A stretch of DNA of 64,000 nucleotides. It comes from Bradyrhizobium sp. CCBAU 53351. GTDB taxonomy: Bacteria; Pseudomonadota; Alphaproteobacteria; Rhizobiales; Xanthobacteraceae. The translations under genes were made by a program, and so were the position numbers. Below the pieces are notes generated by a model that was not told the DNA's origin, did no database searches, and saw only the letters and a list, made by a program, of their open reading frames with translations. The stretch spans positions 3,313,501-3,377,500 of the forward strand of contig NZ_CP030059.1 in the NCBI RefSeq assembly GCF_015291745.1, written 5' to 3'. Numbering within the stretch: the stretch's first letter is position 1; every line of letters begins with the position of its first letter. Of the stretch, positions 4,461 through 53,769 are shown piece by piece.

Positions 4461-4889
4461 ATGGCGTCAGCGAAAATGAGCGTGGCAGAGGTCGAGCAGT
4501 TCCTCCGTCACGAATTCCCTCAGGCCTTCAGCGGCGACGACATCACGATCGAAAGCGCCGACGGCCAGACCTGCCTCTTGCGGCAGCGCTACAGCGAAAG
4601 GATGCTGCGGCCGGGCGGCACCGTGTCCGGCCCGACGCTGATGGCGCTGGCCGATTTCGCCATGTACGTGGTGCTGCTGTCCGCGATCGGGCCGGTCGGG
4701 CTCGCCGTGACCACCAATCTCAACATCAACTTCCTGCGCAAGGGCCAGCCCGGCCAGGACGTGCTGGCCGAGGCGCGCCTGCTCAAGCTCGGCAAGCGGC
4801 TGGCGGTCGGAGAGGTGAAGCTGCTGTCCGGCACCTCGCCCGATCCGATCGCGCATGTCACCTCGACCTATTCCATTCCAACTATTTGA
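4461..4889 (+). CDS. PaaI-family hotdog-fold thioesterase
   Basis: A 142-residue single-domain hotdog protein, the usual size for PaaI/YiiD-type acyl-CoA thioesterases. The motif RPGGTVSGPTLMALADFAMY covers the conserved helix with the catalytic Asp in the DFA position, and TTNLNINFLRKG is the conserved strand. The ATG at 4461 has a GGGTGGGA stretch just upstream; a GTG at 4449 is an alternative adding four residues. Divergent from an ECHDC3-like protein, so the locus is probably concerned with acyl-CoA clean-up or degradation; the natural substrate cannot be read from sequence. Confidence 0.85.
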   Translation: MASAKMSVAEVEQFLRHEFPQAFSGDDITIESADGQTCLLRQRYSERMLRPGGTVSGPTLMALADFAMYVVLLSAIGPVGLAVTTNLNINFLRKGQPGQDVLAEARLLKLGKRLAVGEVKLLSGTSPDPIAHVTSTYSIPTI

Positions 4890-4961
4890 GCTTTTCGCAG
4901 GTAATATAGCACCATATTTTTAACCTATTGATATTGCGGTATTAATTTCCGTCTACGGGCA

Positions 4962-4990
4962 TTGACCGTTGCGCGTCTCTTCTCTAGAAA
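4962..4990 (+). promoter_or_regulatory. Candidate housekeeping promoter of rplM-rpsI
   Basis: TTGACC at 4962-4967 and TAGAAA at 4985-4990 are separated by 17 bases, a good fit to the sigma-70-type arrangement, with predicted start near 4997 and a 50-base leader to rplM. The call is by eye only. Confidence 0.45.
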
Positions 4991-5001
4991 ACGGCGCAGT
5001 C

Positions 5002-50777: not shown

Positions 50778-51974
50778 ATGAACGAGCAACCCGAACAGCT
50801 TCGCAATTTCACCATCAATTTCGGACCGCAGCATCCGGCGGCGCACGGCGTGTTGCGCCTGGTGCTGGAGCTTGACGGCGAAGTCGTCGCGCGCGTCGAT
50901 CCGCACATCGGTCTCTTGCATCGCGGCACCGAGAAGCTGATCGAGCAGAAGACCTATCTGCAGGCGATCCCGTATTTCGACCGGCTCGACTACGTCGCGC
51001 CGATGAACCAGGAGCACGCCTTCTGCCTCGCCGCCGAGAAGCTGCTCGGCATCGAGGTGCCGCGCCGCGGCCAGCTGATCCGCGTGCTCTATTGCGAGAT
51101 CGGCCGCATCCTGTCTCATCTTCTCAACGTCACCACGCAGGCGATGGACGTCGGCGCGCTGACCCCGCCGCTGTGGGGCTTCGAAGAGCGCGAGAAGCTG
51201 ATGGTGTTCTACGAGCGCGCCTCGGGCAGCCGTATGCACGCGGCTTACTTCCGCGTCGGCGGCGTGCATCAGGATCTGCCGCAGAAGCTGGTCGACGACA
51301 TCGAGGCCTGGTGCGATCCGTTCCTGAAAGTCGTGGACGATCTCGACCGGCTGCTCACCGCCAACCGCATCTTCAAGCAGCGCAACGTCGACATCGGCGT
51401 GGTGCCGCTGAAGGAGGCCTGGGAGTGGGGCTTCTCGGGCGTGATGGTGCGCGGCTCGGGCGCAGCCTGGGATTTGCGCAAGTCGCAGCCCTACGAGTGC
51501 TACGCCGAGATGGATTTCGACATTCCGATCGGCAAGAACGGCGACTGCTACGACCGCTATCTGATCCGCATGGAAGAGATGCGCCAGTCCGTGCGCATCA
51601 TGAAGCAGTGCATCCAGAAGCTGAACGCGCCTGAAGGCAAGGGGCCGGTTGTCGTCGAAGACAACAAGGTCGCGCCGCCGCGCCGTGGCGAGATGAAGCG
51701 CTCGATGGAAGCGCTGATCCACCACTTCAAGCTCTACACTGAAGGCGTCCACGTGCCGGCCGGCGAGGTCTACGCCGCGGTCGAGGCGCCGAAGGGCGAG
51801 TTCGGCGTCTATCTGATCTCCGACGGCACCAACAAGCCGTACAAGTGCAAGATCCGCGCGCCGGGCTTTGCGCATCTGCAGGCCATGGACCACATCTGCC
51901 GCGGCCATCTGCTCGCCGACGTCTCGGCGATCCTCGGCTCGCTCGACATCGTGTTCGGAGAGGTCGATCGGTGA
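50778..51974 (+). CDS. nuoD: NADH-quinone oxidoreductase subunit D (49 kDa)
   Basis: A 398-residue subunit that builds the quinone-binding pocket with NuoB. Signature [21 protein letters not shown] and [20 protein letters not shown] near the N-terminus; [18 protein letters not shown] in the middle; the C-terminus ends DIVFGEVDR, the standard ending. Its TGA stop overlaps the start of an FkbM-family methyltransferase by one base (TGATG), an unusual junction for complex I operons, where nuoE normally follows. Confidence 0.98.
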
Positions 51975-52939
51975 TGGGGCAGCAGGCGCCAATCCAGTTT
52001 GACCGCGCCTCGGGGGCCCTGGAAGGGGCCAACCTGTGGGAGCGGACGGCTGCCTTGGCGCTGGTGACGGGATCGAAGATCTCCTCGCACTTCTCGCATA
52101 TGGGCTACATCGCCTGCGCGAATCTGCTGCGGAAGACGCTGCCCGAGCGCAACATCGCGATCAGGCTCAATCCCGACGCCGTGTTCGAATTCCCCTATGG
52201 CGACGGCTATTGGAGCAAGCTGCTCAACCGTTCCTACAATTACGAGGACGAACTCGAGCTCTTGTTCGCCGACTCCATCGACGTCGACTACACCTTGCTC
52301 GATTGCGGCGCGAACTACGGCTACTGGTCGGTGCTGGTCTCGAGCAAGCCGTTCGGCTCGCACAAGGCGATCGCGATCGAGCCGTCGGGGCAGAACTACC
52401 CGAAGCTCGTCAACAACGCGCGCGTCAACGGCAATCGCTTCGACACCATGAAATGCGCGATCGGCGCCGTCCGTGGCACCGCGCGGCTGTCGGGCACAAA
52501 GCACGAGGCCTTCAGCATCGCGGGCAATCCGTCGGCGGGCGGCGAGGAGGTGCCGGTCATCTCGCTCGACAACCTCATCGACGACGGCAAGGTTCCTGCC
52601 AGCGGCAAGTACCTGATCAAGCTCGACGTCGAGGGCGTCGAGATCGAGGCGATCAAGGGCGGCGCACGGCTGCTCCAGGCCGACAGCGTCATCATGTGCG
52701 AGGAGCACGGCAGCGACCGCAATCACTCCGTGTCGCGCTTCATCCTCGAACAGACCCCGCTGAAGCTGATCGTGTTCGATCCGCGCAGCAACCGGATGGA
52801 GACCGTGACCGAACTGTCGATCCTCGACCGCATCAAGGTCTCGACCCACGTCGGCTACAACGTTTTCGGCACCGCAAGCGCATTCTGGCAGGACAGGATC
52901 GAAGCCCTGAATGCCAAAACCGCGCGCCGCATGCAGTGA
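51974..52939 (+). CDS. FkbM-family methyltransferase inserted in the nuo operon
   Basis: A 321-residue SAM-dependent methyltransferase not found in standard nuo operons. The SAM-binding region reads YTLLDCGANYGYWSVLVSS, then AIAIEPSGQNYPKLVNNARVN, and YLIKLDVEGVEIEAIKGGARLL is the FkbM signature. FkbM enzymes methylate O atoms on sugars or secondary metabolites, but the family is broad. Its first Met overlaps the nuoD stop (TGATG), so ribosomes ending nuoD can start here; nuoE follows 12 bases after it. Base composition is like its neighbours, so it is not obviously recent. The target is unknown; protein methylation of a complex I subunit is a hypothesis. Confidence 0.85.
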   Translation: MGQQAPIQFDRASGALEGANLWERTAALALVTGSKISSHFSHMGYIACANLLRKTLPERNIAIRLNPDAVFEFPYGDGYWSKLLNRSYNYEDELELLFADSIDVDYTLLDCGANYGYWSVLVSSKPFGSHKAIAIEPSGQNYPKLVNNARVNGNRFDTMKCAIGAVRGTARLSGTKHEAFSIAGNPSAGGEEVPVISLDNLIDDGKVPASGKYLIKLDVEGVEIEAIKGGARLLQADSVIMCEEHGSDRNHSVSRFILEQTPLKLIVFDPRSNRMETVTELSILDRIKVSTHVGYNVFGTASAFWQDRIEALNAKTARRMQ

Positions 52940-52951
52940 GAGATTGAAGAG

Positions 52952-53563
52952 ATGTCCGTTCGTCGATTAGCACCGAAGGAAGTCCAGCCCGCGAGCTTCG
53001 CGTTCACGGAGGAGAACCTCGCGTTCGCCAAGCAGCAGATCGCGAAATATCCGGCGGGACGTCAGGCCTCCGCGGTCATCGCCATTCTCTGGCGTGCGCA
53101 GGAGCAGCACGACGGCTGGGTCTCGGAAGCCGCGATCCGCGTCATCGCCGACATGCTCGACATGCCCTATATCCGCGTGCTGGAGGTTGCGACCTTCTAC
53201 ACGATGTTCCAGCTCGCCCCGGTCGGCAAGAAGGCGCACGTCCAGGTCTGCGGCACCACGCCGTGCCGGCTGCGCGGCGCCGAGGATCTGATCCACGTCT
53301 GCGAGCACCGCATCCATCACGAGCCCTTCCATCTGTCCAAGGACGGCAATTTCAGCTGGGAAGAGGTGGAGTGCCTGGGCGCCTGCGTGAACGCGCCGAT
53401 GGTGCTGATCGGCAAGGACACCTATGAGGACCTGACCAAGGAAAGCTTCGGCAAGGTGCTCGACGGCTTCGCTTCGGGCAATCCGCCCAAGCCCGGTCCG
53501 CAGAACGGCCGCCAGTTCTCGGCGCCGATCACCGGGCCGACCACGCTGAAGGAGATCACCTGA
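52952..53563 (+). CDS. nuoE: NADH-quinone oxidoreductase subunit E (24 kDa)
   Basis: A 203-residue thioredoxin-like [2Fe-2S] subunit. The four Cys ligands are in [14 protein letters not shown] (Cys-x4-Cys) and [11 protein letters not shown] (Cys-x3-Cys). It carries an alphaproteobacterial C-terminal tail of about 40 residues ([18 protein letters not shown]). Its stop overlaps the next small gene start by one base (TGATG). Confidence 0.97.
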
Positions 53564-53769
53564 TGCGTGATCTCTCGTCGCAGGCCATGCAGGGGAGCGG
53601 TGCCGTGAAGAAGTGGGGCTTCATCGCGATGCATGCGGCGGTTGCGGCCGCCTTCATTTTCCTGCTGCAGCGTTTCAGCCTGAACGCGTCGCTGGAATCC
53701 AGTCTGCTCTGGGCGCTGACCTTTGCCGTCTGCGCCGCCGGACTTGCCTACAAGCAGACCATTCGTTGA
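53563..53769 (+). CDS. 68-residue membrane protein between nuoE and nuoF
   Basis: A small protein of 68 residues with two short hydrophobic stretches (FIAMHAAVAAAFIFLLQRF and LLWALTFAVCAAGLAYK) and a soluble N-terminus ([19 protein letters not shown]). No known family or complex I subunit matches. It is coupled to nuoE by a TGATG overlap and followed by nuoF 15 bases later, so it must be made in step with the complex. It may be an alphaproteobacterial accessory or assembly subunit; this is inference from location only. Conserved Cys in the second stretch is single. Confidence 0.7.
   Translation: MRDLSSQAMQGSGAVKKWGFIAMHAAVAAAFIFLLQRFSLNASLESSLLWALTFAVCAAGLAYKQTIR

Follow-up and report, generated by a model that had tools for sequence, protein, structure and literature searches.

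The 64,000-nucleotide stretch analyzed in this work, called the window below, covers positions 3,313,501 to 3,377,500 of contig NZ_CP030059.1 of Bradyrhizobium sp. CCBAU 53351, a genome of 8.34 Mb in two contigs. Within its nuo operon, which encodes complex I, a gene for an FkbM-type S-adenosylmethionine (SAM)-dependent methyltransferase lies between nuoD and nuoE (Table 1). This gene, referred to as X in the following, is a genuine and long-standing resident of the nuo operon that is under selection and can be lost. The base A at position 51974 is common to the TGA stop codon of nuoD (51972-51974) and the ATG of X (51974-51976), and 12 bases separate the stop codon of X from the ATG of nuoE. 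An earlier note on this DNA had described a 321-residue gene with this overlap and this gap; both statements are borne out by the coordinates, by the Pfam and NCBIfam scores and by the gene order in relatives, whereas its wording that X is "fused" into the operon does not hold, since nuoD and X are separate reading frames.

Table 1. Positions of X, its neighbors, its motifs and two plasmid-borne paralogues
Feature	Position	Strand	Evidence or remark
nuoD (49-kDa subunit of complex I)	50778-51974	+	Pfam Complex1_49kDa, 409.9 bits
X, FkbM-type SAM-dependent methyltransferase gene, 321 aa	51974-52939	+	PF05050, TIGR01444, AlphaFold2 model, dN/dS
nuoE	52952-53563	+	Pfam 2Fe-2S_thioredx, 178 bits
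TGATG junction, nuoD stop/X start	51972-51976	+	sequence; 78/81 loci TGATG, 2 TAATG
Candidate Shine-Dalgarno-like GGAGAGG in nuoD end	51957-51963	+	10 nt upstream of X ATG, by eye
DCGANYG, residues 110-116	52301-52321	+	D110, G112, A113, G116 in 41/41 rows; N114 in 40/41
KHE, residues 176-178	52499-52507	+	K176 in 33/41 (mostly K to R), H177 in 40/41, E178 in 39/41
DVEG, residues 218-221	52625-52636	+	D218, G221 in 41/41; V219, E220 in 40/41
EEHGSDRNH, residues 243-251	52700-52726	+	E243, H245, D248, H251 each in 40/41
X paralogue L190	6971-7957 of CP069301.1		copper-resistance cluster with OpgC, conjugative plasmid
X paralogue L191	6965-7942 of NC_015685.1		copper-resistance cluster with OpgC; 4-base overlap with GNAT gene

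Close relatives were taken as the best 80 of 226 related loci in named genomes, 81 loci with the window; the record titles of these 80 name Bradyrhizobium in all but one. The order nuoD-X-nuoE was found in all 80 and the stop/start overlap in 80 of the 81 loci, so that the junction is not a product of chance. A scan of the nuoD-nuoE interval for promoter-like or terminator-like sites gave none. Between 48900 and 54000, the two terminator-like sites of the + strand both lie past nuoE (53635-53652), and the total of four such sites is at chance level (3.8 in shuffled sequences). The G+C content of X (0.631) and that of its third codon positions (0.894) fall within the ranges of nine nuo genes (0.613-0.678 and 0.873-0.936). 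In codon fit to the nuo pool, X (0.741) ranks slightly behind all nine of these genes (0.595-0.733) and ahead of a nearby TonB-type gene (0.856). The neighbor-like composition and long residence claimed previously are thus sustained, X being an old resident in many related bacteria. The locus that departs from the overlap, L030 of B. liaoningense SZCCT0399, carries an insertion of about 310 bases between nuoD and X (approximately 4685-4994), which ends in a repeat of the nuoD end and the start of which resembles, by eye, a secreted small protein. A separate record, L074, titled Frankia sp. RB7, contains a Bradyrhizobium-like nuo operon that falls inside Bradyrhizobium on the nuo tree, and is probably mislabelled or mixed.

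X passes the curated cut-offs of PF05050 (Methyltransf_21; 47.6 bits, cut-off 22.7) and of NCBIfam TIGR01444 (fkbM_fam; 74.1 bits, cut-off 37.7). PF05050 is its only Pfam match at an E value of 0.001, and X therefore carries no PF02636 domain. The AlphaFold2 model (predicted local distance difference test score 91.5, predicted template modeling score 0.91) has a class-I Rossmann methyltransferase fold. The 50 Foldseek matches listed are generic methyltransferases, and the model resembles by fold small-molecule O-methyltransferases such as COMT, at an identity of 10-12% that does not indicate the substrate; a sequence search of solved structures yielded two weak matches (E values of 0.048 and 0.11). 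Motif conservation was counted over 41 subfamily rows (Table 1). DCGANYG, which we take to be the SAM-binding motif, and DVEG, presumably the FkbM family motif, are both intact in X, and the motifs are retained down to 35% identity. Judged from its sequence, X encodes a SAM-dependent methyltransferase with its catalytic apparatus intact, which belongs to a distinct subfamily of the FkbM family (PF05050, TIGR01444; solved relative 2py6). This subfamily differs from the family at large by near-invariant HE and EEHGxDxxH stretches, by some 100 residues before the domain and by its main home, the nuo operon; to our knowledge, no member has a tested substrate. The ratio of nonsynonymous to synonymous substitution rates (dN/dS) of 0.130 across the genus places X under purifying selection. 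In a linked copy of another genome (L185, 2970-3938; G845), 309 nt past the nuoD match, many motif residues are changed or absent (N114S, H177/E178 gapped, E243K, H245R, H251R), and this copy may be inactive.

Irrespective of linkage, an X-like match at 1e-40 was found in 235 of the 265 genomes of the genus (225 of the 251 of good quality). At least two of these 235 matches are weak (G1047, 1e-86; G1051, 2e-89), and G1047 carries a deletion of X. The family contains 71 X-like matches in 61 of 159 genomes. Of these, 51 adjoin nuoD, across 16 genera, and 20 were counted as elsewhere, the G849 copy without proof, its NuoD place being unlisted; at 60% identity or more, every one of the 45 matches adjoins nuoD. 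Ten genomes of the family have an unlinked copy only, and eight have both kinds. In the order, matches at 1e-5 come from 97 of 397 genomes; most of them are weak and cover the methyltransferase domain alone. Among the 33 matches above 150 bits, 28 adjoin nuoD and 5 do not (L110, L111, L121, L122, L125), with no Nuo match in the 11-18 kb read around each of the five. Linkage also prevails outside the family, where 11 of 14 matches above 150 bits, at 35-44% identity, adjoin nuoD; in L105 and L106, about 270 nt lie between the two genes. In the class, with the top five candidates per genome scored, 5 of 385 genomes match at 1e-40. Two of these belong to the genus; the other three (157-218 bits) lie outside the order and have no Nuo match in the 14-17 kb read. 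Linkage aside, the source names of related proteins include Pannonibacter, Roseibium, Bauldia, Mesorhizobium, Pseudaminobacter and Methylobacterium.

The survey of nuo operons that the earlier note had called for thus placed X in the nuoD|nuoE slot across the order, but most complex I operons of the order are without X, since NuoD is found in 383 of 397 genomes and X beside nuoD in 28. Given these counts and a clade described below that retains nuo without X, there is no strict co-occurrence of X with complex I. The possibility that the gene is scattered elsewhere in relatives, named in the same note as a refutation, applies in part, as the 20 of 71 family matches counted away from nuoD illustrate. 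In a further genome (G918), a very divergent FkbM protein with overlapping ends occupies the same slot (L186, 3358-4275). It is 38% identical to X over residues 58-293, or 35% over residues 11-292 in a second search, and possibly represents an independent entry of a related gene.

A single vertical descent of X was rejected. On a quick Nuo tree, the carrier state changes at least seven times among 36 operons, and the X data reject the placement of f28 with f1 (approximately unbiased test, p-AU 0.0047) and weakly that of the three f16 rows together (p-AU 0.042), these groups having been chosen after seeing the trees and long branches being present. Across the order, X occurs patchily, and its tree conflicts with that of the Nuo proteins. 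The gene may have entered the slot by transfer, perhaps via recombination at the conserved flanks, or it may have been lost many times.

No X match was found in 30 of the 265 genomes of the genus. nuoD was searched in 18 of 20 listed no-match genomes (two less than 75% complete were left out) and in G1047 and G1051, and was recovered in 19 of these 20 genomes, G1051 being the exception. At all 19 main nuoD loci, nuoE lies 43-46 nt past the last nuoD sense codon, and the intervening remnant has the form TGATGATGTCCGCATCCGCACCGCGCGC..TGAGAG, with TGACGATG in three rows. Its 3' part matches the last X bases of carriers such as L096 (CGCGCGCAATGAGAG), and its 5' part retains the X start in 16 rows; the scar is therefore read as the trace of a deletion rather than as an ancestral gap. 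A tree built from nuoD, nuoE and nuoF (19 deletion rows, 31 carrier rows) requires a single change for this deletion (support 94/99; 96% of bootstrap trees), with B. lablabi SZCCT0422 as the nearest carrier. Six deletion genomes have nuoA to nuoM, and these genes are about as similar to those of the window as carrier genes are. There are 26 Nuo sites that are fixed in seven family carriers and changed in all six deletion genomes compared, of which only two, NuoM V91 and NuoG L413, are conserved in all outside carriers, and both changes are hydrophobic. Read from the scar and the tree, one clade has deleted X once, cleanly, and has retained the complex I operon. In addition, the X of G815 (L183, 4700-5311) is shortened in frame within its nuo operon, with residues ~123-217 unmatched in the alignment, which marks it as a partial loss.

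The weight of the position of X was gauged by a survey of guests in 35 nuo operons (15 carriers and 20 non-carriers), in which open reading frames were sought in gaps of at least 260 nt; 20 of those listed were scanned, and 4 had no Pfam match. A 23S_rRNA_IVP gene (PF05635) was found in the nuoC|nuoD slot of at least 7 of the 35 operons, from four families (L133, L134, L137, L147, L154, L158, L159). Like X, this guest is a recurrent unrelated gene in one fixed slot, although in another slot than X; its product is presumably a small non-enzyme protein. GFA genes occupy the nuoC|nuoD slot of three operons, and other nuo slots host a pentapeptide-repeat gene, a CMD protein gene, DUF3291 and an HTH gene. 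Recurrent unrelated guests in fixed slots are ordinary in this order, so that the weight of the X position is lowered, but not removed.

Fifteen of the 20 unlinked family loci were fetched (all but G785, G869, G849, G821:C4 and G905:C30). Seven of them (L121, L170-L173, L181, L182; 43-47% identity) are of a copper type, with Cu-oxidase genes and in most cases CopC and CopD. OpgC is present in six of the seven, and L171 and L172 also have a GNAT/FemAB gene; these neighbors were identified with Pfam or NCBIfam on L121, L171, L181 and L182 and by tblastn on the remainder. Copper-type X genes are carried by four conjugative plasmids, of Bradyrhizobium sp. PSBB068, Rhodopseudomonas sp. BAL398 and Afipia carboxidovorans OM5 and OM4. 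Both plasmids read (Bradyrhizobium and Afipia) have copper genes and OpgC around the X paralogue, and that of OM5 also has two GNAT genes. Another five loci (L122, L176-L179; 51-58%) adjoin a gene of ATP-grasp type, which shares 49-70% identity with its L178 counterpart and has a weak family match: CPSase_L_D2 is just above the cut-off in L122, L176 and L178, and carbamoyl-phosphate-synthase-like NCBIfam models are far under theirs. The last three (L174, L175, L180) have no obvious partner gene. Among distant kin, L125 lies near Wzy_C and an epimerase gene and L126 adjoins a GT4 glycosyltransferase gene, and the scanned neighbor in L127 has no Pfam match. No alignment column conserved in 93% or more of linked rows drops to 60% or less in unlinked rows, so that linked copies and unlinked ones appear to be enzymes of one kind; K176 is R in the five copper-type rows and in L108. 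nuoD linkage requires four changes on the 41-row tree, compared with a shuffled mean of 12.5, and the deep branches are linked rows, the root not being inferred; the unlinked copies hence look derived.

X is more likely a lodger in the nuo operon than a part of complex I. The preferred reading, to which we assign a probability of roughly 0.45, is that X is expressed through the nuo operon but acts on a target other than complex I, probably a glycan of the envelope or a small molecule. Ribosomes ending nuoD would restart on X, which would then be made in step with complex I and share its expression, and the enzyme would use SAM to methylate a hydroxyl (or carboxyl) group of the target. This target would most likely be an envelope-glycan sugar or precursor, the glycan step being the weakest of the proposal; it is suggested because several unlinked relatives are accompanied by OpgC and GNAT transferases and distant kin by Wzy_C or GT4. 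Several points weigh against this reading. Linkage to nuoD prevails and seems to be the background state (51 of 71 family matches, every one of the 45 at 60% identity or more, four changes instead of 12.5), which exceeds the need of a casual lodger. A third of the unlinked loci (5 of 15) pair with the weakly matched ATP-grasp gene, and three stand alone. Glycan neighbors occur in only two of four distant kin, and L110 and L111 are, by eye, without an adjoining glycan gene. Glycan chemistry as such is general background on FkbM enzymes. The remaining probability is shared by the explanations discussed below and, for a small part, by others.

The foremost of these, possible but on the unlikely side, is that X acts near nascent NuoD and methylates a side chain of the Q-module (NuoB, C, D) or of an accessory subunit, thereby tuning assembly or quinone chemistry in addition to MidA. 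Its more specific form, in which a co-translated FkbM enzyme O-methylates (as ester or ether) a nascent Q-module or accessory subunit of complex I, is a little more doubtful. The conserved place, the stop/start overlap and the linkage kept down to about 35% identity outside the family speak in favor of a complex I target, and gene neighborhood is the sole direct evidence for a complex I role of X. There is also a mitochondrial precedent with an unrelated enzyme: according to two articles (PMC3829151, PMC3750175), NDUFAF7 dimethylates Arg-85 of NDUFS2, and the mark is present in Paracoccus denitrificans and absent in E. coli, although the arginine is conserved there. NDUFAF7/MidA (PF02636) resembles X in being a SAM methyltransferase linked, by proof or by position, to NuoD, but it belongs to a different Pfam family, and a PF02636 gene sits elsewhere in the same genome (G000:C1:1227651-1228355). 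Regardless of X, 36 of 37 genomes have PF02636, the sole miss being a 93%-complete carrier (G359), and the HRG motif, the equivalent of bovine Arg-85, is present in all 36 NuoD rows. X is therefore not a stand-in for NDUFAF7/MidA, and the parallel drawn in the earlier note does not carry over. NDUFAF5, a methyltransferase-fold hydroxylase of NDUFS7/NuoB, is likewise a methyltransferase-like factor of complex I. In the parts of the literature covered by our search, no report of an X-type gene in nuo operons was recognized.

Against a complex I target stands the natural deletion clade with its unchanged operon. In addition, no Nuo residue tracks the presence of X in 4195 columns of 13 subunits, in a comparison of 11 outside-family carriers and one consensus of five family rows with 20 non-carriers; the best frequency difference, 0.67 (V at NuoA 13), looks like noise. 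Unlinked copies exist, with 10 genomes counted as having only those, and non-carriers are the majority in the order. The NuoD-modifying role put forward earlier consequently gains no support from covariation, from the deletion clade or from the ubiquity of MidA. All these counterpoints are indirect, as each would be compatible with a non-essential mark on a residue that is conserved everywhere.

A third explanation, in which the substrate of X is a lipid or small molecule of respiration (quinone head group, hopanoid or phospholipid) that supports complex I function, is quite unlikely. It would account for the nuo location and for the absent Nuo covariation, the copies at copper loci would fit a protection of respiration, and the predicted fold is COMT-like, a non-specific feature, but a fold match at 10-12% identity is silent on substrate, and no quinone or lipid gene was found among the scanned part of the neighbors of unlinked copies. 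That X is a hitchhiker without a selected function, kept since its removal would risk the operon, is very improbable: the patchy distribution, the guest-rich operon, the one clean deletion, the shortened copy of G815 and the motif-changed copy of G845 would agree with it, but dN/dS is 0.13 across the genus, the motifs are kept at 35% identity and an X-like match is present in 235 of 265 genomes of the genus.

Should X act on complex I, the modification would be new for the bacterial complex, and a natural control for it would already be at hand. X would be the first FkbM protein methyltransferase and would carry out a second, independent methylation of bacterial complex I, and one Bradyrhizobium clade would be a natural knock-out of this methylation. 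If X spares complex I, which is thought likelier, an overlap with nuoD and recurrence across an order need not mean service to complex I. X also points to an uncharacterized FkbM subfamily that additionally travels in copper-resistance clusters on conjugative plasmids. The deletion clade offers a ready comparison, which makes the complex I target testable.

As a minor observation on nuo genes of related genomes, a second nuoD, 86-91% identical to that of the window, was found in L144 (15303-16499; G270), L211 (G1019) and L145 (G171). L144 and L211 have no other Nuo match in the stretch read, and L145 has a NuoB match.
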